From Physcia stellaris (taxonomy: Eukaryota > Ascomycota > Lecanoromycetes > Caliciales > Physciaceae), in contig JABSSW010000018.1 in NCBI GenBank assembly GCA_018902385.1, positions 62,001 to 126,000 of the forward strand: a stretch of DNA of 64,000 nucleotides, read 5' to 3'. Both the position numbers and the translations under genes were made by a program. The notes below the pieces were generated by a model. That model was not told where the DNA came from. It did not search any database and saw only the letters and a list, made by a program, of their open reading frames with translations. Positions 1,788 to 46,259 of the stretch are shown here, one piece after another. Numbering within the stretch: the first letter of the stretch is position 1; each line of letters opens with the position of its first letter.

Positions 1788-2709
1788 TCACTTCTCCTTC
1801 TTCTCGGCCTTTGGCTCGGGTTTATCGAACCGCTTTTTCACGGTCGTCACCATCTTTCCAAACCAGTAGAAATTCAATCCACTCAGTACGGTATTGCTGA
1901 CGACATATGCCACGGCCAGCCAAGACGGCACTGGGTTTTCGCCTCTGGAAGAGTAGGCGGTCCAGATATCTCGGTACATGTTCACAGACTGATATGAGCC
2001 CCAAACGAGACGGCTTCCTCCGAAGCTCGCAAGAAGTGCGATGCCATTGACCAATTGAGCTTTAGTACCCGTCATGCCGACCTTGTCCATGAACCAATGG
2101 ATGTTGAGGAAGGGCGTTGAGAGCTCGTAGAGGATGAAATTGATGCCATAGTAATTGACAAAGGGTCGCTGTTGCCAGATGTCAGCAAGCCTCGAGCGCT
2201 ACCATCAGTACCGTTCATGACAGAGACTCACGAATCCCAACGATGTCACCGCCAGCGCACTCGCAGCATGAATCAAAGCCCCCACCCATGCACATCAACA
2301 TCTTTGATACTAGCCATCAGATCCCACAGAAAGTACCCCGCCGCAAACCCCTGCACCATCCCCGACGACCCCGTATACCCCCACACCCTCTGGCTCGCAT
2401 TCATAGCCCGCCTTTCCTTGTCGGCGAAGATAACCCACAGCGCAGCGGAATTGATGAAGCAGGACTGAACCATTGACACGAAGTGGACGTTCCAATTGAT
2501 CTTCTTTTTCCGGGGCAGTTGGGGGTAGGTACGAGGGAATAAGCGCGTAGAGACGTAGGGCGAGATGATGACGTTGACGAACTCGTAGAAGCAGAAGGCG
2601 GGGAGGATTTCGTGGGCGTGGAGGGGGAGGGTGCGGAGTGTGAGGGCGGAGGCGAGGGGTTGGGTTGCTTTGGTGAGGAAGGAGGGGGTGGGTGGAGGGG
2701 GTCGCGCAT
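1788..2709 (-). CDS. TLC-domain (TRAM-LAG1-CLN8) membrane protein, frame broken twice at G/C runs
   Basis: Multi-pass membrane protein of the TLC family, probably ER or Golgi; substrate unknown. Exons 2709-2232 and 2168-1788, with a 63-nt GT-AG intron. Recognisable text includes HEILPAFCFYEFVN, RVWGYTGSSGMVQ, GYFLWDL, RPFVNYYG, LNIHWFMDK and a lysine-rich C-terminus ending KAEKKEK. As written, the frame breaks twice: between the start MRDPL and FLTK (runs of five G on the plus strand at 2684-2688 or 2697-2701), and between VHGWG and ALIHAA (C5 at 2279-2283). Adding one base at each gives 861 nt, 286 residues, in frame with both exons. The start at 2709 fits the MRDP start I recall for related proteins; no in-frame ATG lies upstream in the downstream frame. 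Either the assembly undercounts these runs or the gene is a very young pseudogene. Confidence 0.8.
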
Positions 2710-3038
2710 TTTCGAGTGGTCGAAGAAGCCTGCTTGACTTCCAGGTGATGAAAATGCGGGTTGTTGTTGATCATTGAGGTCTTTAAGATCAGTGGCGCGG
2801 AGTGTCGCTTGATATCACGTGCCTGGGGTGATCTGCGGATCTGCGACGCTACTGTAACGAGATTTCCAAGCTCTTAAATCAGATCATTAAGCTCACCGTC
2901 ACCGTCGTCCATACCACTCCATTTTCTCTTCGCTAAACATCAGAAGGGGCAGTCTGTACTAGACGCAAAGTCCCTCAGGCAAACCGTTCAACGGCTACCC
3001 AGCCTCTGAAGACCTCAGTAGGCGGAAATTCGGTCACG

Positions 3039-3541
3039 CTACAATTCTGCACTTTGTCCGCCTCGTGTTACCACAGTCGCGAGTTGAACGTGCCCTTTGG
3101 ATGCGAAGTATCTAGAAATCACTCCTTTAGAACAATTGTACTCCCAATATGCCATCAAGGCCATATAGTAGTCCAATTGGGACTGTGTGGCCTTTTGGCG
3201 TTGGTGATTCATCTCAACCTTTTGAACGTCTTTCAATCACAGACTAGTTGGGCTGCTAATCGATCAATTAAAGTCAAGGACGCTCACAGCTCACGTTTCT
3301 CTAGATCATTAAAGATGCAACACCACGACAGCCATTGAGCTGTACTGCAGAGACTGGCTAATTGAAGGCAGGCGTTGGCAGAGCGTGACCTCAGGTGAGC
3401 CAATAGTGCTATTTCCAAAGCCTGGGACTCCGATGCAAGGCTTACGATTGGAAAGCATGCATGTCCTATGTTCCTGTACACAAGAACCAATATCTCACCC
3501 AATCTTTGACAATCACCTCTAGACATCCGCACTGTCTCCAT
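3039..3541 (-). CDS. Possible two-exon small gene, unrecognised
   Basis: Two minus-strand open frames can be joined by a GTGAGC...AAAG intron (3230-3294, 65 nt) with matching phase: exon 1 3541-3295, exon 2 3229-3039, 145 residues. The product begins METVRMSRGD, is rich in Cys, Leu and Ser, and matches no family I know. Support is only the consistent splice phase. Codon use is not clearly coding and the frames may be open by chance. Confidence 0.22.
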
Positions 3542-4271
3542 CGTCTTCAGATTTCTGCTTCACTGTGTCCATTGTTTCCAGATATTTGCATCACCCTGTA
3601 GCCATGCTCCAATTTCTGCTGTTCCTTTGCAGGTCATCATGTCGTTAGTTTGCTATGTCTCGTATCTTTGTCCATATTCAGCTTCGTTATGACGATGAGC
3701 AGTAGCTCTTGAGAGCCGAGCTCTTACGCCATTTCAGACCTTCTATTTAGCTGTGGACCAAAATTAGATGAAGGGTGCCATGCACCATGATGGCCTGAAG
3801 ATGGCAACGGAGCTGTTCAGGTAGTGAGTCCATACTGATCTTCAAGACCTTGCCGGGCGGCGACTTCAGGGGTATACCAATTCGTACAAGCCACCTCCTG
3901 TGTATCATTTGTAATAGTGAATATCCTTATCACCATTATTCAATATCCAGATTCGCTCTATCTTGAGCTCTAGTGTTATAGTGTTGCACTAAGGTCACCG
4001 CATGTGTCATCTAGGTATACAGATCATTTGAATCAAACGCTTGACTCTACACACCGACCTTGTCTCTCCCACTAGGACTTCACTCGGGCCACACGATTAA
4101 GTAGTGTCATGGCCCAGGGTGCCACGTACTAATGTGTGAGATAGTACTTCGACTTCTTAATAGCCTTCGGCCCTCTCCGAGAACTTTGACGGTCTCATTG
4201 CCTTTCAAAGATCCTCAAAAATCAGCGAAGGGTGTCTCCTGATCCAGCCACCGATAATTCGAAGCACAAAC
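3542..4271. other. Intergenic, promoter side of the F-box-like gene
   Basis: No open frame of note and no repeat recognised. It presumably holds the promoter and leader of the gene starting at 4272. Confidence 0.5.
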
Positions 4272-5786
4272 ATGACGACTTCATTATCTAACGACTCTGA
4301 GTGCGCCACAGCCAATTACGATTTGGAGAACCTTGACGACAGTTTGAAGGGCTTACTCATCACCGCCTCTGCACGCGTACTTAACATTGCTGAGATTAGA
4401 GAAAATATTATGCTACAGCTAGATCCTTCCACTCTGCTCAGATTGGTCTCGGTCTCCCCTGCGGCGCTAGCAACATTCGAGCGAGACTCTGCCAATTTCT
4501 TTGATACAGCACTAAACAACAGTGATATCTCATCACGTAGGTGGGCGATTGCCATACTCGAGGCTTATTGGAAGCGCCCAACCGAGGACCTCCCGAATAC
4601 CTGGACACATGATGGCCGACCTCTGGAAACAGAGCTGGACATCTTCTTGAACAAGTTCGTCAAGTTTGGCGATGATCAGAGCTTGCCGGAAGATATCCCG
4701 AAGTCTCTCGAGTCTTTACGCAAAATAGCTTCAGTGCATGACGCTGCGTCAGACCTGCTAGCATCACATCTCTGGACTGGTATCGAGAACCCTGAGATGT
4801 GTGACATTAACCCCGCAAATATTTGGAAATCCTTATGGATCTATCAACTTTATTGTGAGCTTTTCCATCGACCGGGCAATGCATCGTCTCCAGATGTATT
4901 GTTTCCGTCGGTGCAAGCGCAGAGGAAATATCTGCGTATCATCCGGGGTGACTATGACCATGGGTTCCTGTATTGCCTTTGCAGTGTCTATCGAGACTTG
5001 TCTAGTTTTCTTGCCGGGCTGTTCTATGACTGTTGGCCAGAGGAGTTTTGCAAAGTATACAAGAACCACAGTCAGCGATCCGACGCGTTATGCCAAGGCA
5101 ACACATTTGCTGAGAAAGACTGGCCATATAGCAAGTTCGCATATACTATCCATTCTCCGGGGGTATCCGCGGAGGTAGAGAGAGCACACGAGGACCCAAG
5201 CAGCAGCTTCTGGTCTAGCAAAAAAGTGGTATGGGACACACACGGTGAATTCTTCAAATATATCGACTACCAGATGTCAATTGGTTTACCATACGTTGCC
5301 CAGATGTACCGCATGAGCTTGGCCAACGACTTTTCAGCTTGGGAGGCTCAAAATTACCGCACGGACTCCTTTTTCCCACAGGCGTACGACGCTTTTGGGG
5401 TGGGTCATGCTACTCTCCGTATCACGGCGAGAAATCAAGGCTTTTTACTTGAGCCGGTAGAGGATGGTGCGAAGGGATATCACCTGACCATAACAGTACC
5501 GGCGGCCTCTGGTGACGACTACTTTGCTCGATCGAAGGAGCCAATCTTCACAGATGGAGAGTTCACACCATTGCATTTGGGCAATCTAATGAGACTTGAC
5601 GAACGGATCGAGGAAGAGGCGACGGGAGCGAAGACTGCTGGTGATGGGACGAACGAAGAAGCTTCAACCAAAGGACATTCGTATGAGAAACTTAACAAGA
5701 ACCCCGGTCAGAAAGGATTAGGATGGTGGTCAAGTCTGACGAGACAGGGTCTCGGCTTGATAAGAAAGGACCGGAAAAGCAAGTGA
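4272..5786 (+). CDS. Hypothetical protein with weak F-box-like N-terminus
   Basis: Single-exon frame of 504 residues starting at the first ATG after a stop. Residues about 37-75 (LNIAEIRENIMLQLDPSTLLRL, shortened) resemble the F-box pattern used to bind Skp1 in SCF ubiquitin ligases, but no LRR or WD substrate domain follows. The middle is Trp/Tyr-rich (for example IWKSLWIYQLY, YDCWPEEFCKVYKNH), suggesting a folded globular domain. The C-terminus is charged and low-complexity (ERIEEEATGAKTAGDG) and ends in a basic tail, IRKDRKSK. Such F-box-like orphans are common in ascomycetes. That it is a gene is well supported by length and composition; its function is not known. Confidence 0.8.
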   Translation: MTTSLSNDSECATANYDLENLDDSLKGLLITASARVLNIAEIRENIMLQLDPSTLLRLVSVSPAALATFERDSANFFDTALNNSDISSRRWAIAILEAYWKRPTEDLPNTWTHDGRPLETELDIFLNKFVKFGDDQSLPEDIPKSLESLRKIASVHDAASDLLASHLWTGIENPEMCDINPANIWKSLWIYQLYCELFHRPGNASSPDVLFPSVQAQRKYLRIIRGDYDHGFLYCLCSVYRDLSSFLAGLFYDCWPEEFCKVYKNHSQRSDALCQGNTFAEKDWPYSKFAYTIHSPGVSAEVERAHEDPSSSFWSSKKVVWDTHGEFFKYIDYQMSIGLPYVAQMYRMSLANDFSAWEAQNYRTDSFFPQAYDAFGVGHATLRITARNQGFLLEPVEDGAKGYHLTITVPAASGDDYFARSKEPIFTDGEFTPLHLGNLMRLDERIEEEATGAKTAGDGTNEEASTKGHSYEKLNKNPGQKGLGWWSSLTRQGLGLIRKDRKSK

Positions 5787-7313
5787 AAAGTCTCACTGTG
5801 ACGACTCAAGAAAGCGACTTCAACGATTTAGCGAAGTGTGGTCGGCTTTCCTGCCAGTTTATGTTTTTACGGAAGCACAAATACTTGCCTCCCCGTCCCT
5901 TATGTAGGCATGCAGACGCTGTCAATCGGTGCTTGCAGAGTGGACTTCTCACCACTCGGGCTATCTTCAGATCATTGCCGCATTCTTTCTTTATATATGT
6001 GCAAAAGCCATGGTATTTTACGTCTGGGTTGTAGACCTCCTGCCGAGCCAGCTTTCAGAGTCGCCATCTTGCACTATCTCTACGGCTGGGTAATGGACCG
6101 AGGAAACCCTCCGAAAGAGGTGAAAACGATTGAAGGAGGGTAAGTCCCCAAAGAGTGAATGGGGGAGGTACTCCAACGGAGAGAATAAGAATGAGGAGGA
6201 GAAAAGCAGAAGCGATGAGCTCCTTTGTTATTGGATGTTCAGGAGGATATTGTTATCTCCATGGAAAGCTTATCCCCTAAATATCACATCCTTCCCTCCT
6301 AGCTTTGAATGAGGAACCCTATCTTCCCCGACCACCAAGCTAATGCCTCGCCATTTCCCGACTAGTACTCCTATTCCTGCACGAACGGTACGCTTTCCAA
6401 AGAAGTTCAGATGTCGTTTGTTCGCTCCAAGGGAACTCGAGACGCTTGTTTTCTCTTATTGTGGTAAGGCTGAATTGCATATCCTCTCTAATCTGATCAT
6501 ATCATTTACCGGTTTGGTTGATGAGCTAGTCTATTCGTTAAGAGAAGATCAATACCTTCTCTCCAAATCCATGCACTAGAAGCTCAAACCTAAGGAAGGA
6601 GAAACCCACTTTACGTCTTAGAAAATGTACGTGTATGGGAATGCTTCCATGAACACTATGTGACTGAATCAACTTCTTCTGGGTTTCATGGAGAATAACT
6701 GAGGCTGAATCCTATTTTCTGGTCATGGGATTAATAAAGTTCAGCCTCTATTTTCGTTGAGGCCGAGGCCTGCTGTTGATCCCAACATCTCAATCGATAT
6801 CTCTCGAATAGGAGACGCGGGCTTTTACTATATATTCTTCTCATCAATTTTATATTCCCTTTTCAATAAGCTCATTTAATAGTATCGGGCCATTTTCGTG
6901 AATCAGTCTTCTCATTGCCTTCCAAGTCTAAGTCCTCTCCTTCTCGACAGCGGCCCCCTCGCAGCGTTTCAGAGACCTCATCTCCTCATCCTCCCTCCAA
7001 CTTTCCCACCCCACATGCCAGCTCCAAACTCCCGAAGCCCTTCCTCATCATCCGCTCCACTTCCCCTATCTCCACAAGTTCATCTATAGACAGAATTTTC
7101 CGTCTGATACCAACTATGGCTCCCTCTCAGGTAATCAGTGATGGAGATCGTCCAGCAACGCCCTATGGGTGACCTGAGTGACTGGCGACAGAAAGGGGAG
7201 AAGGATAGGTTTGTGGTTAGATCTATTGAAGGGCGGCATGAAAAGGGAGCAGGTATACGAGTCCTTAGTTAAGACTACAGTGATGATTCTGAAGAGCACT
7301 CACCAATATGTCA
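5787..7313. other. Intergenic; CT-rich promoter-like tract without a clear gene
   Basis: Small open frames only. From about 6900 to 7110 the plus strand is strongly CT-rich, as in fungal core promoters, and ends in CCAACTATGG (ATG at 7116) followed by CAG/GTAATC, which looks like a first exon of five codons and a splice donor. No convincing downstream exon is found before the repeat at 7314. Confidence 0.4.
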
Positions 7314-7560
7314 TGGTCTGGCAGCAACTGGTGCTAATTTTTTTTTGAATATACCGAGAGATCCACGATTACCCGACTTAGGACGAAGGCAGAAGCTGAT
7401 GCTTCTTTCATGTCGTCTTCATATCATCTTCATATCGTTTTCATACGCCTTGTGCCAAACACGGGTACGCGTCTTGTCATATCGGATGTATTGGTGTCGA
7501 TGCTTGGGGGAGGGATAGCACCACACCAGACCATGAGATAATATTCCGTGTCCGCGCTAG
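7314..7560. repeat. Dispersed repeat, copy 1 (relative of 63181-63420)
   Basis: Shares ordered blocks with 63181-63420 in the same orientation: TGGTCTGGcAGcAA...TGGTGCTAAT, CGATTACCCGACTT, TTGTGCCAAA.ACGGGTACGCGT, and TAGCACC.CACCAGACC. Blocks are separated by diverged spacers. Many differences within blocks are C/T or A/G changes, as expected from repeat-induced point mutation, though I could not quantify this. No coding capacity is visible. The limits are those of the recognisable similarity. Confidence 0.7.
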
Positions 7561-8077
7561 AGATATATGGAACAAGTAAGACTTGCATGCAATCATGAAC
7601 GTGCCACAGAACGTACTTTAGGTCAAGAGCCTCCATCAATCCTTTGGTCCATCTATCTAGCGTCTGAGTGCTTTGCCTTGATGGAGTTGAGTGCCAATAC
7701 TTAAGCACGACCCAGGACCGAGAAACCTCGTAAAGCCTAGTAATGGAGTGAGGAGTTACGACGGGTCAAGTAATTGAACCTTCAAGGCTACTCATACGGG
7801 GATTTTCATGCCTTCTTGCAACCGCAATTCCACGGTTTAGCCAAGTGTAAACGGCGTTTCTGCGGTTTAAAACCTTTTGAACGATTTAAATCCGATTTAA
7901 TCCGGAACTTACCGTCAAAAGCGCCACCCAAGGCCCTGCGTACTTACTATGCAGCACTGACCAGCAAAAACACATCTCAACATATGCCAAGCCATATCTG
8001 GGTCCAGCAACAAACGCATCCAAGGGGTCCGCGCCATTTCCCACGCTATTCCCAAACATTGCACCAACACCATCGGC
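7561..8077. other. Intergenic, upstream of secreted-protein gene
   Basis: No gene seen. It contains AT-rich stretches such as GATTTAAATCCGATTTAATCC near 7880 and presumably the promoter of the gene at 8078. Confidence 0.45.
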
Positions 8078-9148
8078 ATGAAGACCTTCCTGTTGCTCAG
8101 CGTTACGCTAGTGACGCATGCATTCACGGTTAATTTCTACAAATCACCAAACTGCGCTGGCGAATTCTTGAATTCCTACACGGGAGATCTGAGCAACACT
8201 TCTTGTCGCCAAGATGTGGGCGAAGCAGGTGGTGCAGTAGTCACGAAGACAGGACCGCTTGACGATGGTGCCGCAGTAGCGTTCTATTCGACCGACGACT
8301 GTGATCCTGACCACCTCCTCTCCCAAGCGGACGCTGGATGTATTAGCGTTACCGACTTCGAGAGCGATTTCCGGTCGTTCAACGTCGTTGGCGGAGTCAA
8401 CCAAAAGGGAATGAAGATGCGAAGTGCTCCGGACACCCAGTCACCACATCCCTCGGATCCAGTTGACGATCACTTATATGAACGCATGGACGGTGAGAAG
8501 CTTGAGGCTAGATCAGATCCAGGCACTCTTGCGAACGCGAGGGTTCGGCAGCATGGAGAAGTCTCGGAGTATCTTGGCCAGATGTACAAATGGCATCAGG
8601 TCGCTGAAGGTGCATGGCGCGGCATCAACGTGGAAGATTGGGACGATGATAAACACGTCATAAACAATACCAAGCTCAAAGATACTCACTGCCTCATTCG
8701 GAACAATTCTCCAAATCAGGATGCGCGCCGTTCAGATTCGAAAAAGCTTTCACTGACCAACTCTCACAATCTCGAAGAACGTGACTTTCTCTACGGTGCC
8801 TGCAATTTTGTCAGGAGTTGCGCCCTTACCGTCTTAGCCGGGACGCAATACACCGTTTCCGCGGTGGTCTCAGCATTCGTGAGCAAAGCCCTACAGGTTT
8901 CTGGCATCATCAACCTCTGGGAATTGTTAAATCAGCCCTCGAGCAGCATCCGAGTATCCCAGTGTTCGAGCTCGAAGTCGGATGCCGAAACAATAGCTAG
9001 CATCCTCAAAGACTTTGCAGAGTCAATATCTGACAGGGCTTTTCAGGCCACAATGGAGTATAATGGTGTTACCGGTGTGATATCAGTAGGGGCTGCACCC
9101 ACGGGCCAGAGGGGTGATGGGGTCACCTGTGGTGCTATTTTCGACTGA
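8078..9148 (+). CDS. Predicted secreted cysteine-containing protein, unknown function
   Basis: Intronless frame of 356 residues. Residues 1-16 (MKTFLLLSVTLVTHAF) form a typical signal peptide. The first mature domain, about 17-100, has four cysteines (C26, C43, C75, C88) in a beta-rich text with VNFYKSPNCAGE and AFYSTDDCDPD, a layout common in small fungal secreted domains. A charged linker with possible KR/RR-type processing sites leads to a C-terminal domain (about 240-356) with further Cys at YGACNFVRSC, VSQCSS and GVTCGAIFD, and a hydrophobic Ala/Val-rich stretch. No catalytic motif is recognised. It could be a cell-wall, defence or effector-like protein; this is inference from secretion and cysteine content only. 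It is followed by another secretory-type frame and, further on, a small Zys3-like gene. Confidence 0.75.
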   Translation: MKTFLLLSVTLVTHAFTVNFYKSPNCAGEFLNSYTGDLSNTSCRQDVGEAGGAVVTKTGPLDDGAAVAFYSTDDCDPDHLLSQADAGCISVTDFESDFRSFNVVGGVNQKGMKMRSAPDTQSPHPSDPVDDHLYERMDGEKLEARSDPGTLANARVRQHGEVSEYLGQMYKWHQVAEGAWRGINVEDWDDDKHVINNTKLKDTHCLIRNNSPNQDARRSDSKKLSLTNSHNLEERDFLYGACNFVRSCALTVLAGTQYTVSAVVSAFVSKALQVSGIINLWELLNQPSSSIRVSQCSSSKSDAETIASILKDFAESISDRAFQATMEYNGVTGVISVGAAPTGQRGDGVTCGAIFD

Positions 9149-9841
9149 CCCGAGCACTGGCTCGACGAAGCTGAGGCGGAGCACTAAATTTGGTGCAGTA
9201 TTGCAAACTGGTACAAGGACGAATTTATGGATGTAGGCCCGGTGAGCATGAGACTATCGGATCGATTGGGCATTAGAGGCTTTCGAAGACATCGAGACAA
9301 TACAGGGATAATTACCTCTAGAATCGTTGAGTACGATCTTACGATAAGTCAGTGAAAGTTCCAGGCACTGTTGCGGCCAATCACCTAGGGATAGACGGTT
9401 GGAGAGACATGTGGTATATCATATATATCCGAAAGTAGAAAAGACGTACTGATGGTTTCAAAGAATTTACCGTCATAATGGACAAGAATGAGTAGCGTAT
9501 ATCTGGCTCCATCTATCAGCATAGTGACGAAGTTAGCTTGATATACTAAAGATGACTGAGTCTTGGGATTGATTGTCAGCTCTATTTAGAGTCACGTTTC
9601 GAGCTCCCTGACAAACAGTCAGTGTCGAACATGGAAGCAAACAAACCACACACCTTTCCTCATCTCCTTCTTATCCTCATCATCACCAACAGCGGACCTT
9701 GACCTCCACCTATACCCACGAAGAACAGCCGATCTTTAGCTCCTGGCCCCAAAAAGACCAAGACAATCGTCTCAAAATACAACGAGAAAGTACAATCGAG
9801 AAAGATTCCTGAACTTACACACTCACACCTATCCAGAGCCG
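9149..9841. other. Intergenic
   Basis: No gene, RNA or repeat recognised. The last 200 bases are C/A-rich and may be the leader of the small frame at 9842. Confidence 0.5.
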
Positions 9842-10225
9842 ATGCCTCCCTCCCAGCCCTCCACCCTCATCCCCCACATAATCTCCCTCTCCCTCATCCT
9901 CCTTCCACGAGCTCCTCCCGTCACAGCAGCTCACTCATTCGCGACCCTCCCCTCCAGCCGAAAATCAGCATCACTCCTTACACCCACCACATCTTCATTC
10001 CCCCTTCCCACCATTCGCCCAGCAGCCATCATCCCAGGGCACGCTAGAGGGTACCTAAACCTGGAGGCGCTTTCGAGAACAATCATCACCCTGGCACTCT
10101 GCGCGGGCGTTGTGGCGCTGCTGCTTGTGGCCATGGCGGGTTTGGGGTGGGGGGTTGATGTTGGGTTCCGGGAGATGGGGTGGGGGTTGGGCGGGAGGCG
10201 GAAGAGGGTGAGGTTTGTGGAGTGA
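9842..10225 (+). CDS. Small predicted membrane protein, unrecognised
   Basis: Open frame of 127 residues. The N-terminus has a signal-anchor-like stretch (IISLSLILLPRAPPVTAA) and residues about 78-103 form one strong transmembrane segment (IITLALCAGVVALLLVAMAG). The end is basic and Arg-rich (GGRRKRVRFVE), suggesting a cytosolic tail. The middle is Ser/Pro/Thr-rich. No family is recognised. Only the signal-plus-TM layout supports coding; GC-rich low complexity could also give it by chance. Confidence 0.42.
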   Translation: MPPSQPSTLIPHIISLSLILLPRAPPVTAAHSFATLPSSRKSASLLTPTTSSFPLPTIRPAAIIPGHARGYLNLEALSRTIITLALCAGVVALLLVAMAGLGWGVDVGFREMGWGLGGRRKRVRFVE

Positions 10226-11613
10226 TTGTCTCAAGGGCGCTGGACGGGGTTCGTGGTGAGGGATGATGGTAGTACATGATTGTTCGAGGGGGAATGGTCG
10301 AGAGTGTAGGGGAGAGCTGGGTCTTGGGGTTTTTGGTGGATAGCGTGACGGGCTCGGAGTATTCTATATTTTTAGATCAGCTTGTGTTGGCTTTGTTTGC
10401 TTGGTGTGAGATCGTAAGGAACTTACTGAAATGAGGACCGTCATGTCTCTCGATTCAAAAGCTGTCATCAGTCCAGTGACTTAGGCGTCTCACAGATCTC
10501 AACCGCGGTGGAACTTCTTATATCGATCCGAGTAATGGTTTCGGTAGCATCGAGTCTCATCAAAGTCGAAGGCCCAAGTCAGTTCCTAGCCGACAGAGGA
10601 GTAAATCTTCGTTTGCTACTTGCGCATCGACACAATGTCCGTAGCGTGGCAATATCTCCATATGAAACGTACCTTATCAACCTCTGCGTACCTTTTCTAT
10701 CTCTTTATCGGTTGGGTAGGTCATTACCTCCCCCTTGTCCAGAGTCTGGAAACCACGGAACGGTTTTCTTCATCTGCATCCCCAGCGTGAGTGCTCGGCG
10801 TCAGGTCAAGGGGATATAACGCACTGGGCACCAAGCTTCCGACTCCTCTGTTTAATAGGAAATAGGGTAGGGGAAAAGAGAAAGAAGGAGAAGGGCGGTT
10901 ATTTGCATCCAGATCCTTTGATTGATTGAAGAGGGAGACATGAATCACTGACTCTCTGGTTTCTGGAATGGAGTGAAGACAGGGCAGCACCACTGGATAG
11001 ACATTCTTATCTTCATTCGTCCTCTGAATGAAGAAAGTGAGCATTGAAATTGACGTGGGAGTACGTATTAGGGTAGCCAGATTTGAAGGATGGAATTAGT
11101 ATGCCTACCCATTTTGATATTTGGGATCACATACGTTATACAGCCGATTTATATCCGTTCCCAAAGCCTGCAGTACCATATTCCCAAGTCAAATCCTCAT
11201 CTCACTTCCCTTGGTGCTCTGCCCGGCTTTGTACACCTCCAGGGTGAAGTTTTCTCGAAAGGGCAAGAGGGGAAAGGGCCGTTTTCGAGAGGGATACGAT
11301 TGGATGGGTCCAGCAAAGGGAGGTTCGCGGCTTCACTTGGTTTGATTCACCTGTTTGAGGCTGGGACTCACCGCTGTTAGCTTGGAAAAGCATATAAGAA
11401 GGCTTTCTTGATCCTCTCTTTCTCTCTTTCCTTGATATAGTCAACCTCCGAAACATTTCATACTTGGATACTAGTACCCGTCTACGGTCAAGGATAGGAC
11501 GCTCTCCAACTATCGAATCTGAAGCTTGTAAGTAGTATTCCTTCGCTTCATGGAAGATATGGGAGACTCATCTTGGAGCTAGAAACAAAGAGACAAATCT
11601 CACCTACAACAAG
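10226..11613. other. Intergenic, promoter of Zys3-like gene at right end
   Basis: Only short frames without recognisable content. A pyrimidine-rich stretch near 11400-11445 (CCTCTCTTTCTCTCTTTCC) lies about 200 bases upstream of the ATG at 11614 and is the likely core promoter or transcription start region of that gene. Confidence 0.5.
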
Positions 11614-13785: not shown

Positions 13786-15868
13786 TCAAGTTCGCCCAGG
13801 GTGAGCGGCGTTGTGAGTAATTCTCAATCTTGGCTTTGAGGGTGCTGGTCCTTCCTCTCCCGAAGGATCTGATGCTGCTCTGTTCTTAGCACGCTGTGCT
13901 CGTGGTGACTCTTCAGCATGTTCCGCGGTAGTAGAATCACTACCTTCAGCAGTCTCTGCATCTTCTGCTGGTGCGACTGAGGAAGTCCTCCTTGCACGTC
14001 TGCCTCTCTGGGAAGGTGGCTGTTGGGCTGATGCAGCTACATCTGCTGCAGCTGCTGGCGCAGACTCTTTGACGCGTTTGTTTCGGGTCTTCGGAGCAGG
14101 TGGTGCTTTATTTGATTGTCTCCCTTTTGCTGTAGCTGCGGGCCTTGCTTGCTTAGTACGTCTACTTTGGGTCTCTTGCGCAGGTGGTTCTTCGGCCGGT
14201 TCAGTTGCTCCTACTGCAGCTGCTGGCCTTGCCTGTTTGGCACGTTTGCGTCGGGTCTCTTGAATAGGTGGTTCTTCGGCCAGTTCAGTAACTCCTGTTG
14301 TAGCTGCTGGCTTTGCCTGTTTGGTGCCTTTGCTTCGGGTCCTGCGAGATTGCGGGCCTTCCTCAGGTAGTGGTTCTTCTGCTGCTGCTGCCGATTCTGG
14401 CTTCTTAGTGCGTTGATCCTTCGGTGTTTCACTTGGTGAAACAGGGGGTGGATCCTTGGCTAATACCTCTGTTGGCGTCTGCCGAACCTTGGCGATAAAA
14501 CCTGCAGCCACAGCATTTTGCCCAGTAGATGAATTACTGACTTCCGCCAAACCTTTCTCTGGAATCTTTGTCTTGCCTTTCTTCCTGTTATCTCTCTCTC
14601 TTTTGGCATCATTTGGACTAGTGGCAATGAAGTCCTCGACTCTAGTCTTGCAACTACGCGCGTGATTTTCCTGAGCTCCTGCACTTTTGTGACCTTGGGC
14701 AGTCCAGCAAATGGCACAATATATTCGCTCTCCCTCATTCGGCTGATTCTGTAGGTGTGGCGCATTGGCCTGCTCTGTCTGTATTGGGTTATCCACGCCA
14801 GCCCCTGAAGGTCCAGCCGTTGGTTGGTTCGCATTTGCCGAATTCTGACGATCTAAATCTGCACTAGCAGCAGTCTGAGTGCCCTGGGTCTGCTTGCCGC
14901 CCTTCTTGCTCTTCATCTGGGTCGATGACGCCGCTGGCGGAGACTGTTCATGCATTCCTTCGTGTTCTCTTCGCATCTAAGATTCTTCAGCACAATCATG
15001 GTGTTTGGGACGAATTCAAAGTTACCTGGTCACTCATATGCCCAATATTCGCATGACATCCAGGATGTAGACAAAAATAATCTCTGTCTGAGTAGTGGAT
15101 ATGCTCTCGCATGTGGCGAGTGACTTCCTCCAATGCTGTCAGCTACAGGCCAAGTCTCAGGTAACAATGTAACATACCACCAATGATGGGAATGCAGCTC
15201 GATCCGCAAGATCAACCGTGCATCCTGAATAGGGACAGATCTCTGCCTCCAAGGAGTGAAGATTATCTTTATGGTATTCCTGCAGGTGTTGCCGCTGGGC
15301 CTGTGGCCTGTATCAACAAACACGTACTAACAATTCTACCATTCCAGGTCCTGTACCTCGCTGTTTTGGCCGGTCCAGTCTTGACCGCAATATGGACATA
15401 AGAGCTTGTTATTGTGCTCTTTATAATGCCTCATCCCCTACCTTCAGTCAGTAATTGAATTAGCTTTGGAGAGAAATATCCAACCTCTAACGTGTCGGGT
15501 TTGAGAGGCTTGTAGCAAACCCGGCACCTTTCTTCATGCAGCAATACGTCCTCCTCATTGGAGATTACATATGCCTTCACATGTTCCCACTCTGTTAATG
15601 TGGGGACCCGATTGCGGATGGTTGGAAATATTGAAGCTCCTTCAATTGGATTCGCCCAAGAGGCTATCCCGACTGAACTATTACCATTGGCACGGGCTTC
15701 TTGGTTGTTGTCGAGCGCTTCATGTCCATCGGTGTTTTCGAGTCCAGCTTCTTGTTGGTCGTCCAGCGATTCTTGTGGATCGCCCACTTCGGCGTCTTCA
15801 ACGTCGGAATCGGGCGCATTGACTGATCGCGAAGCTTCTACAGCTCGTCTACGAGATTTTTTAGGCAT
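13786..15868 (-). CDS. C2H2 zinc-finger protein with basic Ala/Pro-rich repeat tail
   Basis: Exons 15868-15357, 15300-15178, 15127-15026 and 14976-13786. With one base added in the C4 run at 15435-15438 (plus strand) the total is 1929 nt, 642 residues. Without it, exon 1 stops after LLTEGRG; a weak 47-nt intron (15438-15484, donor GTTGGA) is the alternative. Zinc-binding pairs are C115/C118 and three C2H2 fingers: CPYC (158-161) with H176/H181, CPYSGC (193-198) with H217/H221, and CLHPGC (231-236) with H251/H255. The fingers span the last two introns. Residues after 350 are a disordered tail with about three 28-residue repeats (KQARPAA...EEPPAQET) encoded by an 84-nt tandem array, rich in Arg/Lys. 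A nuclear DNA- or RNA-binding role is inferred. Homologous family not identified. Confidence 0.75.
14101..14345 (-). repeat. In-frame 84-nt tandem repeat inside zinc-finger gene
   Basis: On the plus strand GGGTCTCTTG recurs at 14169 and 14253, exactly 84 nt apart, within longer similar text (GGTGGTTCTTCGGCC, GCTGCTGGC.TTGCC). About three diverged units encode (K/R)(A/T)KQA(R/K)PAA followed by a Glu/Pro linker. The period is a multiple of three, so copy-number change would keep the frame. Confidence 0.8.
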
Positions 15869-34884: not shown

Positions 34885-35982
34885 TCACCAGCCCAACCAT
34901 CCGCTAATCGTATCACCCACCGTCGCCTGCCCCTTTTCTCTCCGCTCTTTCCGCGCTTGCTCCCGCGCCGTCATGAGCTCAGTGACTCGTTCCGCAACCC
35001 CGACATCTGCCTCCGCTTCCGCGCGCATAGCTCGCTCCTCCAGCTCTTTCACCACCTGCGGCTGGTTCTTTGTGCGTTTCTGCAACTCCGCGCGTGCCGC
35101 CTCTGTGAGTCTTGGCCCTTCCTTCTCTGCACCTGGCTCAACGGGGGCGCTCTGATCGGGTATCGGATTTGATGAGGGGGATGGTGCGGGTGATTGGGGG
35201 AGCGGGGCTGGGAGAGGAGAGATGGAAAGGAAGGAGCAGGCTGTCCGGCTTCTTTGGCTGCTTCGATGGCTTTTTCTTGGTCCAGCATGCGGTGGTAGAG
35301 GGTGTCGGCGTGCATCTGGATCTGCTCGTCGACGTGGGCCGGGCGGTCGTGGGAGGATAGATAGCCCAGTGCTTTTAGGAATTTCTGGTGTGCCATATCA
35401 GCTTCGTTGACTATTGCTCGCCAGTTCCTTATCTCCATTGTATCATAGAATTGTCTTATTCGACGTTAGGAGACATACGTTCTGCATCAAGTAACACCTC
35501 TCGAAAGCCTTGTTCTCCGCCCTACACATCGTCATCCTCGACTTCACCCCACCAGTCGACCAGCACTCGTGCACCGCCGTCTGCTCCAGCGCGCAGTTCT
35601 CGAGAGCTGCCCGCCCGATGTCCGCTTTTCGCTGCTTGTAGCCTTCGAGGACATCGAGGAGGCGCTCTTGGTCGGTTTTGGTGCTGTTCTCGATCTCGTG
35701 TAGGGGTTTGTAGGTCGACCAGAGATCGGCGTAGCGGCCATCCGGATAGAGAGATTGAGGGGGTGCGGCGGATGTTTGGGAGGGCGAGGGAGAGGTTGTT
35801 TGGGTGGATGCTGAGGCTGTGGTATTTTGTGGAGCTGTGGGTGGAGGAGACGGGGCAGAGGACGGGCTGTATTTCACGGGGGACTCTTTTTCGAGGAAGG
35901 CCCGCAGGCTGGGGTCGAGGTCGCGGAGGGGGTCGCTGTTGGTTGAGGGGGGTTCTGAGGGGGTGGAGGAGAACCAGCCCAT
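34885..35982 (-). CDS. Twin-CX9C protein of DUF3128 family, frame broken once in exon 2
   Basis: Exons 35982-35479 and 35384-34885, 94-nt intron joining MQN/KFLKALGYLS. The start at MGWFSS is preferred over the Met nine codons upstream. The core has ENCALEQTAVHEC and MTMCRAENKAFERC, two C-x9-C pairs as in CHCH proteins oxidised in the mitochondrial intermembrane space; mitochondrial location is inferred. Flanking text (YKPLHEIENSTKTDQERLLDVLEGYKQRK and SHDRPAHVDEQIQMHADTLYHRM) matches the fungal DUF3128 pattern. In exon 2 the frame leaves the conserved reading after PSLLSQP and resumes as PIPDQSAPVEP...VVKELEERAMRAE...GDTISGWLGW. One extra base in a G run of the plus strand (35176-35180, 35196-35200 or 35204-35207) restores 1005 nt, 334 residues. 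No GT exists nearby to offer an intron instead. Confidence 0.8.
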
Positions 35983-37140: not shown

Positions 37141-37866
37141 TGCTGGATGGGAGAAGTTATTGGATTTTATTGTAGTTGGATTAATCTAATGATATGGTCT
37201 TCGTCGTTTCTATTTCTCATGGCTTTGACATCCGTTGAAGAGCGTCTGTTGTTATGAAGGAGTTATTCCACGCCTAGGCCGCTACTAGAGAGAGACAGTT
37301 GATTTCAAGGAGCTCGACTACTCACGAACCTTTGGTGAAAAACACCGCAAATCAGATACCTGATGGCATGAGGATACTTAAGAGGAAAATACTGTCTGCA
37401 AGTTCGTGACGGAAAAGCGAGATGATGGTGTTGAGAGACTCACAATTTACTTCGGAGCTCTCTTGTCATGGACCTACGTTTGAATGAAAGTTTTGGATTG
37501 GTTGAAGGCACTTCCCATTAGTAGTGCTTCCGTTTTACAACTTCAACACGCAGTCGTTGTCCATGATTCGAGTACAGGCCGAGCGCTTGTTCTAGAAAGG
37601 ATCAGTTTGTGCCTCTGTCCTAAGTCGCGGAGAGGATCCTGGAACTTTGAGGCAAATCTGGATGCAGCAAAGTATTTATACTACAACCCTAAATCGTGTG
37701 TTTATGTTAACCCTAAATGTTTGGGATACCGAGCGTCCGAGGTCCTCAGATTCCCTTCAACCTCAGACAGCACAGATGCTGTTGTATCGCTGACCCAGAA
37801 GTCACGCCCAGGCAGTATGGCGGGTGGTGAGTTCAGCCTCAGACTGCAATAGCAGGTAAGGAGTTA
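37141..37866. other. Intergenic
   Basis: No gene recognised; the frame at 37484-37852 has no supporting features. AACCCTAAAT occurs twice 24 bases apart (37685 and 37709), resembling the telomere-like telobox motif but too short to mean more. Confidence 0.45.
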
Positions 37867-39917
37867 ATGAGCATAGGTCGAGAAGAGCGTCTGATGATGC
37901 GCCAGCGTGGTGCAGGGTGCGTTTCCAATCACTTTTCGACGGTGAACCTATGAGAAGCTGATCGCTAAAAACTAGCCGTCAAGTAAAAGAGTTTGGGTTT
38001 GATCTCGTCCTGCCAGGCCAGTCGATATCACCACTGAAGCAACGAAAGTCTGGGAGATCTCGAAAGACCCCCCAACCTGACCTTCCACCACCAAATCTAC
38101 CACGCAGGACACCAGAGCAAGCACCAGTGTCCAATTCAGTACATGCAAAAGGGAAGCGTGAGGCTGAGTTGAACACAGTCGAAGATTGTGAGGGTGATCA
38201 GGACATTCTTGGCTCAGACCCATCAGCTGGCCATGGCGAGGCAGTTGACAGCAGGAAGCGAAAGCTTGAAGAAACCGTAGATAGAGAGCAACCCCTGACG
38301 AAGAAGAAGCGTAAAACCACTCAGAAACTGCGCAAAGAAGACACAGCTATAACCCGGAAGGGAAGGCATCGGAAGCCAAAGTCCGCTTCAACAGAATCAG
38401 ATGAACCTTTGGGCCCGATGGAAGCTTGCCCTCCCGGAGAGAAAGCCACAAACGCTGAGGTTCTTCCAGCCACTGGATCAATAGACGAAGCAAAGGGCCA
38501 AAAACCTGGTCCCGATGTGACCCGCAAGCTTAGGAACGAGACGTCGATGCCATCGAAACCCATCAGACTTCCAAAACAGCCTCACAAACCCAAGGAGAAG
38601 AAGGGTCAAAAACTAACGAAACAGAAAAGAGGGGAAGAGACAGAGCTTGCTGGTGCTGAGGTCGATCAAGGATCGCTACGTCGGAATGAACCGAGCACAC
38701 AAGCAGTGGCCCCAGCAATCGCTCCTGTCAAGAAGCGGAAGAAGCGGAAGTCTGTTGGACAGCTATTTACACAACGGCCCAAGCGGCCTTCAGTTGGATC
38801 ACCGGATAAGTCCTCCTCTTCGGGGCGGAAGGACACAACTTCAGATCTTGTCAATGAGTTGTTAGAGAGCACGATCGTTTCTTCCCCCAGGAAGCGTACC
38901 AAAGACTCTGAGCAGGTACCAAAGCTGGCGAAAACTTCACGTGTTCGGCCCAAGAGGAATGCCGAGCATGTCGCCGCAAAAATTCCTGACGTAGTTCCAG
39001 AGGATCAAGCTTCAACCAACGAAGTGAAAACAGCGCTCGAGCAAGCAACCGAAACATCTGTGCCCATAATTGAGACGAAGGCTAGAAAGAAGCGCAGATC
39101 TATCACACAGCAAAGAAAGCCAAGAATAAAGGTGGCTACAGATGTAAAAATACAAGAGGCAGACTCAAAAAGGCCAAAAGCTGAGGCCCAGTCCATTGCT
39201 ACTGCTCCACCAATTTCGAAAACTATAGAACCAGAACCCCGACAGAGGCAGCCCTTATCCAACATCACCAACTCCATTTCTGGCCTAACTCTAGTTCAGA
39301 CAGAGCCAGAGGGAACTGGGATCTTGAATGAAGTTGCCGCTCCTGCAAAGAGGAGAGGCAGGCCACGCAAGGGGTCCACCCTTCAGAATGCCGACACCTC
39401 GGAGTCTCGGGATAGCATCGTCAAACCTGCGGCAAAGCCCAGAATAACCAAATCTTTACCAAAGAAACTCGTAACGGGCCCCACAAAAGTCACCAAAGCT
39501 CCCATTAGACCCCGAAAAATCCTCAAACACCCAACCCCTATCACCGTCATCAATTCCACCAAGGCTCTTCCCGACGACCCAGATGCCGACTCCGATGACC
39601 CCCTTTCAGGCCCAAGCAATGTCAAGTATAAGAAGCCCATCAAGTATCATATGGACGAGCTGGCCCAAGATGTTCCGGAGACTCTCGAAAAGGAAGCTAA
39701 CGATCCAGGGATGATCCCGAAAGCGGCAAAAGGGAATAAAGCGTCGACGCAGAAGGGCAAGGCTATACCGAAGCGCGGAGAGGAGCTAACGCCACAGAAG
39801 AAGGGAGTAGACGATGAAAAACGGAAAGCCATTGAGCAAGAGGAGATTGAGGAGCTGCTAGGAAGCATAGGCAAGGCTTTTAAGAGAGGAAGAGAGATGG
39901 CTGCCAAGGGGGCGTAA
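37867..39917 (+). CDS. Basic disordered nuclear protein with Ame1/CENP-U-like N-terminal motif
   Basis: Exons 37867-37916 and 37976-39917; the 59-nt intron has donor GTGCGT and ends CTAG; 663 residues. The N-terminus, MSIGREERLMMRQRGAG followed by RQVKEFGFDL, resembles the start of yeast Ame1 (RDTKLAFRLRG), which binds the Mtw1/MIND complex at the kinetochore. The rest is Lys/Arg/Glu/Pro-rich and disordered, with nuclear-localisation clusters (KKRKKRKS, RKRTKD) and an AT-hook-like RRGRPRKG near residue 495. The last 30 residues are a charged helix (KRKAIEQEEIEELLGSIGKAF). I do not see the coiled-coil C-terminal domain expected for Ame1, so the kinetochore assignment is tentative; another chromatin protein is possible. 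The downstream large frame itself has no ATG start, so the upstream exon is needed. Confidence 0.65.
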
Positions 39918-42410
39918 GATGAAATAGTGCTTGGCCCTAACTCACCTGGAACACTTTGTCTCTGGATATGCTACACGATATGATAGATGGAATGAGAACC
40001 GATCTAATCCAGGCCACTTGAGGAGTGAAATATGCCCTTGTGGTGCTTTAAGGATATCGACTGATAGATTGATATAGCTCGCTGACCACTAGGCTAATGG
40101 CCTGGCACGAATCGCTACTAACTCTAGCGTCTGTGTCCGCCTCGAACGCTTTCTCGATTTCAGCATCTACTCGACATTGTTTTCCACGGGTAAAACCACA
40201 ATTTCCACTGGAAGGTATGATAGATTGATCGACATAATCGTTCCCTCGTATAACTCAACACGAGGCCACTGCTAGGCTTTTCGGAGAACCCTGCCTTTTC
40301 CTAACGTGAATAAAGACCGTCCGAGAAGATAGATAGCATGATGTGAGCCGCTTTCCCCCTTCTGAGTCCTAGCTACTCGAATCGCCCCCTATCTTGTCTC
40401 TATTCATCTCCTAATCGTATGTATCCCATTCAACGACAAAAATTGACCTTCAGTTTATCTAGAGTTATCTCCTGTTAGACGGTCATTATCCGTAGAAGAA
40501 CCTTTTCCCGCTCAAAGACTTGTGAAAAGAACGAGTGATTCCAGAAACGATAACACGAGATATGCATAGCCCGCTAAGTTCCCAAAGTGTTGTAAACACC
40601 AACACCAAAACCCATAGAGAGAGAGAGAGCAAGAGCCCAACTCCGAACCCCCCCAAGCAAACAGAACCAAAAACCGATCCGAAAATTCGACAAAAGTCTA
40701 CTCCCACGGAAGAAGCCGGCGGGGCTTCCTCGGTGGGAGGTACACAAACCCGAGTCAAGCTCAAGGGTTTCCAGTCTCGTCCGTGGTGGGGATTCGAACC
40801 CGGGCATTCCACGGGGGTGCGCTTGTCTTTCGCGGTCAAGCGCAGTGTTTGTTATAACACCGCCTTCCCCTTGGGAGGGAAGGCAGCTTACCCACTGGGC
40901 CACTGTCTTGTACCCTACTGGTACTTCGAGTAACTCGGGTTACCCTACTTCGCGCACGCCATGGATTTGGGGGCTTATTTGGATATTTATATTTTTATAT
41001 CTTTCCTTGGGGTCCAATATGGATGTTTCTTACTGGGAATGATTTTTTTGTTTCTCTTTATGCATTTCGTATGTGGTCGTCAGATTCGAGTACGCTCAGC
41101 TGTCCTTGACTGCAACAATGTCTCAACACAGTCCCTCGGCCCAACAAACATAAAAGGAGATTCCATCAGCTGGAGTTGTCCTCCACGACGCTGCCCCCTT
41201 TTCACAGGAAGAACAACCAACAACATATGGTCCTTTCCCAATCCAAAAAAACCATCTTCGACTGATCTAGAACTAGACCTACCCCTTATCAACTTCCCAT
41301 ATCCAACTCCATCCAACGAGAAACCACCACTAATCATCGCCACAGAAATAACCCTTACTCTCTACAACACCGAACTCATGGACAAAAATCGCTTCATATC
41401 CCAGACGTCCTACCGCTGCATTCTGCTCCTAGCACGCTATCCCATCCTGTGAGCATACCTCCACACCCCGTCCTCTGGCGAGCGAACATCGACATATCCC
41501 ACAAGCCCACAGCTTCCAGCTAACATCGCCGTAAGCGTGCCTGAAAGTACGATACACGAAACGCAACCACATAAGAACGAGACTAAACTCAAAAGGCTAG
41601 AGGGAGACGGAGAATCTCAAGGGCCCACCCTCTTTTTACCTAGTAGCATCGCCAAACGCGTGTATGATCTACGACTTTGGACTCGCGGCATGGGTGGGAA
41701 ACGCTAATTCAGTCGATAGCACGTACTAAGAAGATCAAAGAGTCTAGAGCGGAAGGGTCTGACGGCTTTGAAATAAGTTTTCGAATATCCGTCTTGATGT
41801 TTGCAAGCGGGGTGACTCTTGGGCTTGGATTATCGGGGGTCTAGCGGAGGGCAGCGGTAACATGAGTTGGAAGTACTACTTCGTTTGGAGGACTTGAGGG
41901 GTGGTTCTCAGGATGGGGTAGTGTTTCCTTGATGGGTAGTTGGACCGCATGGGTCTGTTTTGAGACGTGATCTATGATACGTACACCGTGGACCTCGATC
42001 TGAAATATCTATCTCACAAATTGCACAACAGGGAAAATGTCGATAATGTTGGAGCCAAGCAATGACATCTTGAAGGTTCGCTCCTATGAGAAGTAGTAAT
42101 TGATGGTCGGAACTCTTAATATTTTCTGACCTATTTAACTATTCTTCCTGAGATCATAGTCGGAAGGACATGATAATCCGCATAGGAGCTTAACAACTGA
42201 TCTCTTTCGCTATCAGGATGGTAACCAAAAAGGAACCAGGACCCGCAGATTGAATGCGGTGGAGTTTTCTCCCTCCATGGGAACTCCGGACGCCTCGCTG
42301 CACGGTCAAATTTGGTAAAACTCCAATCTCATGAGAAACCCGCTGCCGAATGCGAACGCTGTTTGAACCATCTTTTTACCCCTTTTCTGAACGCCTAATA
42401 TCTGTGCGAG
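39918..42410. other. Gene-poor 2.5 kb holding a tRNA-like hairpin element
   Basis: No protein gene recognised. 40614-40630 is a short GA microsatellite. 40701-40902 holds the hairpin and tRNA-like element listed separately. The AT-rich stretch 40975-41065 and the remainder contain nothing I can identify. Confidence 0.5.
40701..40909 (-). other. tRNA-like, hairpin-rich element (possible SINE or tRNA relic)
   Basis: On the minus strand TGGCCCAGTGG (40902-40892) fits the RNA polymerase III A box and GGTTCGAATCC (40800-40790) fits the B box, 92 bases apart. A cloverleaf does not form: the acceptor ends do not pair, only three of five T-stem pairs form, and the would-be anticodon loop lacks U33. 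The segment is GC-rich with three inverted repeats: 40701-40717 with 40723-40739 (15 of 17 paired), 40819-40825 with 40837-40843, and 40862-40869 with 40877-40884. This looks like a tRNA-derived short interspersed element or a decayed tRNA with intron. No second copy is in the window. Confidence 0.55.
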
Positions 42411-44676
42411 TCACAGACACACGCCCCAGACACCGCGCCCTCCGCTCACCCCTAGCCAATCATTTCCTCTCGACGTCAAGAAGCTCTGTGGTGACCAGCT
42501 GAGGTTATTGACCTCATAATCACATTGCCAGCTGCAGGTTGGGCCTTGGCTAGCACCTTCTGCACCTGTAGATGCGTGGCCTGGCTGAGCTTGAGAGCCA
42601 TTGGCATTAGGAACTGTGTTCCCCACAAGATTGGCTGTTTGACTCGAACTTTGATTTAGCAGGTCCCAAATCATTACAAGGCTATCGTCGCCACCTGAAG
42701 CGAGTGTACCTCGCCTGGAAGGCGACCATTCGATACAATTGATCGGAGCAGCGTGTCCTCGGAGTTCGAGAAGAGCCTGTCCTGGTTGACGGACATCAAG
42801 GATGCGAATGCTGTTTGAGTCCTGGGAGAATGTTGCTAGGAGGTGCGCGTCGTGAGGAGAGGCTATTGAAGATTAATAGGGATCGCTAGACAGGACAACG
42901 AGTAATAGCAAATGGGTGAGGCAACGGCTCCACATACCTGCAAGCCGTAGAAGCGGAGGGGCGTATGACATGGTTTGCTGTGCAGTCGTTGGTGACATGT
43001 TGCCCGGACTGGCTGCTGTTAGATGGCATCGATATTAGCATCTGAGAACATTACCGTCAATGTTTCGTTAACTTACACTTGTCGGCTTTCTCCGAAGGCT
43101 CGTAGATTATTGTACTGTGCTCAAGACTTCGGAGATCGAACATCCGTACACTGCCATCAGCTCCGCAACTTACGAAGACATCGACGCTATTCGCGCAAAA
43201 CCGCACATCGAACACCTCTTTGTCGTGGGCTATGAGTTGTGTCTTGGCGGTTAGGGTCGGTATGTCCCATATGGTACATGTTGTATCTATACTCGAGGTA
43301 ATGATCAGGCTTGGAGAAAGATTGTTCCAGTCAAGCGAAGTGAGGGGAGCTGTATGCTCCGGAGATTTCGAGTTCGAGAGCAAGGCAAGCGGAGTAAGTT
43401 TCTGAGGAGGGGCTTGAGAGCTATTGGAAGAACGAGATATGGAGTTGGTCTGGTGATAAGCTGGCTGCGAAGGCAATGACCACAGGCGTAGATGGTCACC
43501 CGATGTTGCTAGAAGATCTGTTGACTGCTTTTGTGAGGACGCTGGCTCCCATAATATACGCGTAACAGGGTATGAATGCGTAGCTTCGGTAGTCTTGACA
43601 TATTCAATACCGTGTTGGGGTGCTTCTGGATCGGGATCAGGTTCGTCGGAGACAATGGTATCCAGGATTTGGATCTCCGTCAAGTGTCAGGACATACGCT
43701 ACTAAAGCTGGGACAATTCAAGGCTATGGCTTACAAAGTTGTGTCCATCTTCGACATAACTTCCTATTGCCATTTTCCCGGCTCCTTCCCCTGAAGACTG
43801 ATGTGGTACAGGCCACTTACACCAGTCGAAAGCGTACACCGGCCACGGTGCTAAGTAATTACTATTCGTCGCGACAGAAGGATAGCCATCGCCAGTAAGA
43901 GGGTTAGCACTCTGTGGGTCGTCTGCAAGTCCCCTGATATCTGCCAGTCCTAGGGGAGAGTATGCGCCTCCGCCCTGCGGTGTTTGGGATGTAGTATAGC
44001 GTTGATTCGGCGGTGATGCAAACTTGCTGTTTTCGGGCGTGCTGGTAAAAGGAACATACTTCTGATGATCGAGGCCGGCCGGGCTGGATCGAGAGTAGCT
44101 GTGAGAATGGCTCGAGACTGATGGGCGTGTAGGGGGGTGTTGTTGGGAATGGCTGGATAATTGAGGCAGCGTAGGAACAGCGGACGGAGCTGTGTTTATA
44201 GAAGACGCCCCAGGTCGGCCTGGCTGTAAAACGCCAGGTAAAGAACTATTTGCGGCAACGTTCGAGTAGTTCGTGCTTTGGGGAGTGGCTTGGTGAACAC
44301 TTATGCCTGGGGCAGATCCACTTCCATATTCTTGCGTGGCATGATAGAGTGCTGCCGCGGCAGATCGCCCCTACTGCTGTGCCTGCTATCCATCTCTTCG
44401 AGCGGACGACCCTCGACGAGTACGTCTAGGCTGGATGTAGAGGTGTTGACAATATTCGAGCTTGATGGCTCGGAGGCCGCAAGCGGGGAGGCGCTGAACT
44501 GCGCACGTTTCCCTCTGCCTTCTGCTGGTGTTTGATCTACACGTTCCTGTCCCTTCACCTCTGCAGCATTGGAGGTCGCTTGTCCTTGATCTGCGTCTTA
44601 TTAATCTTTATTCAGATCGAGTGAAACTCGAAATCAAAAGAAAGAGTTGGAGGAATTGGGAAGGAGAACTTGCCAT
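42411..44676 (-). CDS. WD40 protein of the WDR68/DCAF7 (AN11/TTG1) type
   Basis: Scaffold WD40 protein; relatives bind DYRK kinases or Cul4-Ddb1. Exons, 5' to 3': 44676-44670 (tentative), 44596-43735, 43674-43077, 43015-42938 and 42862-42411. The first about 230 residues are Ser/Pro/Gln-rich (TPAEGRGKRAQF, RSAAAALYHATQEYG). WD blades follow: WPVYAFDWCKWP, KMAIGSYVEDGHNFIQIL, PVTRILWEP, LLATSGDHLRLWSL, PLTSLDWNNLSPSLIITSS, FVSCGADGSVRMFDLRSLEHS, LLATFSQDSNSIRILDVRQPG and INCIEWSPSRRGTLASGGDDSLVMIWD. One base is missing at the C4 run 44368-44371 for RHSSRG to continue into RSAAAAL; a 53-nt GTACTC intron is the alternative. With the added base, the exons total 1998 nt (665 residues). The 5' end (MANADQGQ, weak donor GTTCTC) is uncertain. 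Confidence 0.85.
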
Positions 44677-45054
44677 GGTTGTATTCCTGTTTACTGCCCT
44701 GTACTTCAAGAGAATGTCAGCACCAAATGGTAGAAGGCGAAGTTCCTTAAGATAAGACACCCTGAAGGTCGAGTACTCACAAGTCGCTGCAGTTGCTAAG
44801 ACATCCAATCGCCTAAATTTGCTTGCAGTTGGCTCTGCCGGAGTTGGGGCCCGATGGTCCGGCATCCTTGCCAGTAGCCTGAAGTAGCCTGAAGATAGGG
44901 GGATATATCCAAGAGTCGTTTCAACGATCGAGAATGTGCACAACAATGCAACTGAAAGCAATAATTTCTTTTTTTTGTAATTCTGAGTAGGCTAAAGATA
45001 GTCCCTTGAATTGTGTATTTGAGACCAGAGGCAGCTACAAGGAGCTTCATTGTC
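44677..45054. promoter_or_regulatory. Divergent promoter, WDR68-like (-) and PPAT (+)
   Basis: About 380 bases between the probable starts. A T9 run lies near 44970. The minus-strand limit depends on the uncertain first exon of the WDR68-like gene. Confidence 0.4.
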
Positions 45055-46259
45055 ATGGCTTCAAGTGAGCCAAAATCACCGTGGCTCCTGTTATTGCCAT
45101 CAGCTCCTTCCAATGATTCATTTGACAGCCTCAGAGCTGCTTACAGCAAGGCCATCAATCAAACCGTTCAATCCATTTCTACTGTGTCAAAGATCTCAAA
45201 GATTACTCATCGATTGGATATCGCAATAGCCCACTCTACAAAAAGGTCTGCCAAAGACGATCCACCAGGCTCTCATTACTCTGAGCTTCAGGGGCTACTT
45301 GGGAACTTGTACAAGCTTGTGTGCATCACATTCGCAGAATTAGAAGTTGGCATCGAGTTTGATAATGACGTCGATGTAAGGATTATTCTACTTGACAGTA
45401 CCCAGCGTCATGGAGTTAGTATGTTCAATGTACAGACGCTAGCCACCTGCTATCAGCCCTGGAAACACGTCTCCTCCACTGAGGATACCCAAGGAGAAGA
45501 ATTACTCAAATCCTTCCACCATCTGAGGAAACCCTCCAGTGCTAGTTCTGCCCCGGGTCTCGATGTTAGTCAGGTTGATGCTGGTACAGACGCCTCTAAT
45601 TTGGGATCTCGCCAGGACGAAGAAAGGATATCTACAACCAATACCGCCAAACGTCATTATTCGGTCGCTGTGGGCGGAACTTTCGATCATCTGCACCTTG
45701 GTCACAAACTTCTACTGACAATGACTGCCCTAGTAATCGAGCCCGATAAAGAGCGCCCTCGGACATTGACAATAGGTATCACGGGGGATGCACTTTTGAA
45801 AAAGAAGCAATACGTTGAGTATTTGCAAGACTGGGATCAGCGACAAGAGAATGTACGTGACTTCCTCCTGAGCATCTTGGGACAAGATCCAAGCGCAGAA
45901 CCGACGGGACGGAGCTACGATACAGAAACGCAGGCCCGTTCTGTTCGTGAGGAATTGGAAAAGGGCCTAACGATCAATTATGTGGAGATATTCGATCCTT
46001 TTGGGCCGACAATTACGGACGAAGATATATCAGCCCTGGTAATCTCGGCGGAGACCAGATCTGGTGGCAAGGCCGTCAATGATCGACGAGTAGAAAAAGG
46101 GTGGGCATCACTCGAGGTATTCGAAGTGGACGTTCTCGATGCTGGGGTATCGAACGAGTGCGGCTCAAAAAGGTAGACTTCGAGGACAAGATCAGCAGCA
46201 CAGAGATTCGACGCAAGCTGCATCTTCGTCATGCAGGCGGCTCTGCGAAAACGGAATGA
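45055..46259 (+). CDS. Phosphopantetheine adenylyltransferase (Cab4/CoaD-like), frame broken near 3' end
   Basis: Fourth step of coenzyme A synthesis: ATP and 4'-phosphopantetheine to dephospho-CoA. Start at 45055 (MASSEPKSPWLLLLP); the Met at 45013 is less likely. The first about 200 residues are the fungal N-terminal extension (LRAAYSKAINQTVQSIS). The nucleotidyltransferase domain starts at SVAVGGTFDHLHLGHKLLL, with the HxGH-type ATP motif, then LTIGITGDALLKKKQYVEYLQ and ISAETRSGGKAVNDRR. The conserved end DFEDKISSTEIRRKL is in another frame: one base added to the G4 run 46144-46147 joins VLDAG to it and gives 401 residues ending AGGSAKTE. A 26-nt GT-AG removal would also restore the frame but is shorter than normal introns. 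Confidence 0.88.

Follow-up and report, generated by a model that had tools for sequence, protein, structure and literature searches.

In the PacBio assembly of Streptomyces leeuwenhoekii, C or G was omitted in runs of three or more, which led to frame shifts, and the omissions were corrected with Illumina data (PMC4487206). Nanopore assemblies of fungi show homopolymer indels with frame shifts as well (PMC7500977, PMC9453082, PMC5466710). The frame breaks described here resemble the Streptomyces case in that single C or G bases appear to be missing within runs, frames are shifted, and the losses are spread through the genome. They differ in that S. leeuwenhoekii is a GC-rich bacterium, and its 2934 inserted bases in 7.9 Mb are far denser (PMC4487206). 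The nanopore assembly of Drechmeria coniospora is closer in one respect, since there too conserved fungal genes have their frames broken at homopolymers (PMC7500977), and the same is described for fungal genes in the nanopore assemblies of yeast isolates (PMC5466710). The sense of the error is another matter. After polishing, run length in D. coniospora was over-predicted more than it was under-predicted (PMC7500977), and the yeast isolates gave mainly losses with R7.3 reads and mainly gains with R9 reads (PMC5466710), whereas here losses dominate among the breaks that were kept.

I propose that the frame breaks in the present genome are errors in the assembly consensus and that, very probably, the real genes are intact. 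One base would be dropped from the consensus in short homopolymers, chiefly G/C runs of 4-6, so that the deposited sequence would change frame while the organism's gene would be unbroken. The missing bases would then exist in the organism's DNA. As for platform, the signature looks like that of long-read data without short-read correction, which may be what the assembly was made from. Consensus error is favored because the five breaks in the window have the same sense and because others occur in unrelated genes on other contigs, and also because a second TLC gene is intact and there is published precedent. On these grounds, the systematic undercalling of G/C runs that an earlier, sequence-only reading had suggested is the best fit. 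What is observed are frame switches without a good intron, in genes that are expected to be intact, with weak intron options retained by WDR68 and PPAT. The practical warning is that near G/C runs a gene model from this assembly, a tally of pseudogenes, or the apparent absence of a gene is not to be trusted before correction with independent reads.

Frame breaks and candidate introns in the window

The window is the whole stretch of DNA that was analyzed, 64 kb (G000:C18:62001-126000) of a genome of 43,974,083 bases in 147 contigs. Its short introns and its gene content, with genes presumed to be those for pyruvate kinase and for RPN2-like and Asp-tRNA synthetase-like proteins, suggest that the DNA is from a filamentous ascomycete. 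The TLC, CX9C, PPAT, GGA, Tsr3, and WDR68 genes are likewise named in part presumptively, by the likeness of their text to these families.

There is one rival to consensus error that has to be carried through the description of every gene: some of the breaks may be unrecognized introns that join the two frames. I consider this improbable, with a small chance of being right. Candidate introns were scored if they were of the form GT/GC-AG, 40-349 bases in length, and joined both frames without a stop, using splice matrices built from the genome's own predicted introns. Those predicted introns have a median length of 65 bases (n=189) and median scores of about 7.2 for the donor and about 4.9 for the acceptor. 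In the window, the scan was confined to chosen stretches of about 110-370 bases.

The TLC gene, on the minus strand, changes frame twice, each time one base short. Near its N-terminus (2668..2709, an interval bounded by eye), the frame of the start codon is different from the frame of the conserved text. On the minus strand this interval contains two C5 runs, 2684-2688 and 2697-2701, and no frame-joining intron within the GT/GC-AG and length limits was found in 2709-2600. The second switch, in the middle of the domain, is bounded by stops to just 22 bases (2273..2294), among them a G5 run, as read on that strand, at 2279-2283. By hmmscan, the Pfam TLC domain (PF03798) is split between the frames, positions 1-68 matching in the first and 79-197 in the next, and the top intron that might join them has a total of just 3.4. 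The genome contains a second TLC-domain gene (L023, G000:C74 near 121874-122341), which is open in frame. It is 72% identical in DNA to the window gene over 186 bases, has no frame change at either of the two positions, and has its N-terminal start in a single frame.

The twin-CX9C gene, likewise on the minus strand, switches frame toward its C-terminus in a C-rich linker (35113..35243, from reading the frames, with the interval drawn by eye). The stretch contains, on that strand, a C4 run and three C5 runs, the break is one base short, and the top frame-joining intron totals 3.2. The WDR68-like gene, again on the minus strand, switches frame near its N-terminus, as judged by reading the frames, upstream of the WD-repeat region (44301..44371). 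Its stretch, read on the minus strand, contains G4 and C4 runs and is one base short; in the coding model, too, a base is lacking here, with the event located at 44363. Here the intron rival gains some ground from a weak option totaling 7.1, without a branch site. A search of the genome for a second copy of the twin-CX9C and WDR68 genes, conducted at the DNA level only, found none.

The C-terminal switch in PPAT, on the plus strand (46132..46176, from reading the frames), is also one base short. The stretch contains both a G4 run (46144-46147) and an A5 run (46167-46171), and either could be the one that lacks a base. An intron option with a total of 9.2, again without a branch site, speaks for the intron rival, but it would come at the cost of removing text that is presumably conserved. 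In PDB chain 3do8, an ISST motif is found shortly past the region that matches the frame change in PPAT, and a similar motif is found here in the second frame, a likeness read by eye, the aligner having left the two motifs unpaired.

The intron rival has further support at the claimed break in a zinc-finger gene (15435..15438, minus strand), where the G4 run is usable as the 3' end of an intron. Two candidates, 15484-15438 and 15520-15438, both with a branch site, end at that run, and the totals for the frame-joining introns are 7.7 and 6.6. A gene model also has an intron at this site, though a longer one, 15491-15308. The shorter candidate (47 bases) would produce C-X2-C-X13-H-X3-H, a spacing close to that of another finger of the gene, C-X2-C-X14-H-X3-C. 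A Pfam search with both pieces of the zinc finger gave nothing significant. Since an intron could join the frames, a break at this site is not established. The sequence-only reading had counted six breaks in five genes, all near G/C runs whose coordinates proved exact and each repaired by one base. From reading the frames, five breaks in four genes stand, every one of them one base short as had been claimed, and the zinc finger is the one left in doubt.

Breaks elsewhere in the genome

The sampled DNA consists of the window plus 28 further 10-kb stretches, 344 kb in total. On this DNA, a coding model that treats frame shifts as events in their own right gave 69 such events, 12 of them with a score difference over 4. 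Once the frames had been read, five of the 12 were kept and seven were set aside. Those kept are the window's WDR68 event and, outside it, the events in L002, L015, L018, and on the minus strand of L017.

Two of the kept events bear directly on the intron rival. The break in L002 (near 1859, contig C1) and that in a GH32 gene in L018 (near 7384, contig C17) are each one base short, the first at a C4 run and the second at a C6 run. The text resumes within 8 and 17 bases, respectively, which between the hand-chosen anchors is too little space for any intron. Together with TLC and CX9C, where introns are absent or poor, these cases count against the rival.

The break in a GGA-like gene in L017 (near 590, minus strand, contig C16) is also one base short. 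The stretch lacks runs of at least 4, whether G/C or A/T, and its intron candidates score below 0. In L015 (near 8446, minus strand, contig C14) the break falls in TAF10 (PF03540). One frame matches positions 15-71 of the domain, and the next frame matches 74-102, though with a score below the curated cut-off. This break is one base over or two short and sits in a G-rich tract, where intron candidates score at most 0.7.

One more break was added by eye and with the aid of Pfam, in the Duc1 gene of L019 (near 9150-9250, minus strand, contig C18, the contig of the window). Positions 2-41 and 52-141 of Duc1 (PF08588) are split between frames. The model scored this event at 3.9 and called it a loss. 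The mismatch follows an intron and adjoins C5 runs, and when the best-looking intron, of 100 bases, is removed, the remainder of the exon is one over or two short. There is one weak candidate for an intron that restores the frame, with a score of 5.0. The breaks thus fall on contigs C1, C14, C16, C17, and C18, scattered over the genome at more than one locus.

The events set aside are instructive in the other direction, for 4 of the 12 strongest read as short introns, in keeping with the intron rival. The event in L025 reads as an intron with good sites, though of 43 bases only. That in a Tsr3-like gene on the plus strand of L017 (near 2574) is a 53-base intron, with a total of 8.0, that mimics a break, and so does a probable 52-base GC-AG intron (donor 2.1) on the minus strand of L026 near 4170-4211. 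The event on the minus strand of L006 (near 6705) was put down to an intron whose donor scores just 0.6, a doubtful assignment. As for the rest, two events in L030 are shadows, given that the opposite strand carries a gene there, presumably BolA-like, and the event at 2715 in the window was judged a false start. A search of MFS transporters, in which 9 of 342 candidates were scored and all were open, is uninformative as to breaks.

Run context and the sense of the shifts

Consensus error at G/C runs would make itself felt in where the breaks lie and in which direction they go. Nine break stretches, several with bounds set by eye, were compared in this regard: the five in the window and four outside it. 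Seven contain a G/C run alone, one (PPAT) contains both kinds, and one (L017) contains neither. The A5 in PPAT makes uncertain the assertion in the sequence-only reading that no break of this kind was seen at A/T runs. A random exon stretch of equal length contains a G/C run with a chance of 0.08 to 0.43 each, and the predicted exons (126 kb) contain 628 G/C runs of length 4 or more versus 742 A/T runs. The cases in the window were preselected by that reading; those outside are the more independent support. Across contigs, the breaks lie mostly, not exclusively, at G/C runs. Undercalling of such runs extends readily beyond the window to L002 and L018, but less so to L017, which lacks the run, or to L015 and L019, which have the other sense or lack two bases.

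Eight of the ten breaks are one base short; in the remaining two, L015 and L019, there is either one base too many or two too few. If the doubtful L006 is included, itself one over or two short, the count is eight of 11. In simulations at G/C runs, the model detected a loss as readily as a gain, with 66 of 120 recovered in either case at a score difference over 4. Against a bias to losses, the full set of 69 events from the model, the majority of which are weak, divides about equally into 37 losses and 32 gains. An initial coding model, run on 264 kb and with little power, gave losses/gains of 3/1, 8/3, 12/10, and 15/20 as the penalty was relaxed. At a score difference over 4, the 344-kb model recovered one of the five window breaks. 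A test of frame agreement on the two sides of every homopolymer, itself weak and autocorrelated, did not clearly show losses to be more frequent at G/C runs. The density of breaks looks higher in the window, at 5 in 64 kb, than elsewhere, at 5 in 280 kb, a comparison of limited power.

Possible decay or restoration of the frame

Suppose that the breaks are real. They might then represent recent decay, in which one-base deletions struck several genes of the genome simultaneously. The TLC gene offers some comfort to this view, in that it has a second homologue and its loss might be tolerated. PPAT functions in the synthesis of CoA, and both it and TAF10 are regarded as essential. That these two are among the affected genes, and that PPAT has a single match in the genome (tblastn), argues against decay, as do the shared sense and the similar context of the window breaks across unrelated genes. 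I regard decay as very improbable.

Less credible still is the idea that the frame is restored by base insertion through transcript slippage or by programmed frameshifting at G/C runs. The shifts in the window do share both sense and G/C run context, as this idea would have it, but the runs are only 4-6 long, and G/C runs of such length, counted together, are common in predicted exons (628 in 126 kb). Moreover, the second TLC gene requires no shift, and such a run is lacking in L017. A new process of frame repair would be required if the DNA truly had the breaks and the protein did not. It strains belief that many conserved genes of the organism should really have their G/C runs so short, with slippage at these runs setting the frame right as RNA is made or read. 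Decay, repair at the level of RNA, and programmed frameshifting are all much less likely than consensus error. Viral or mobile DNA at the break sites may be dismissed on general grounds, as may a different genetic code, the breaks being switches of frame and not single stops.

Finally, one of the sampled stretches, L012, contains a homopolymer of 51 A.
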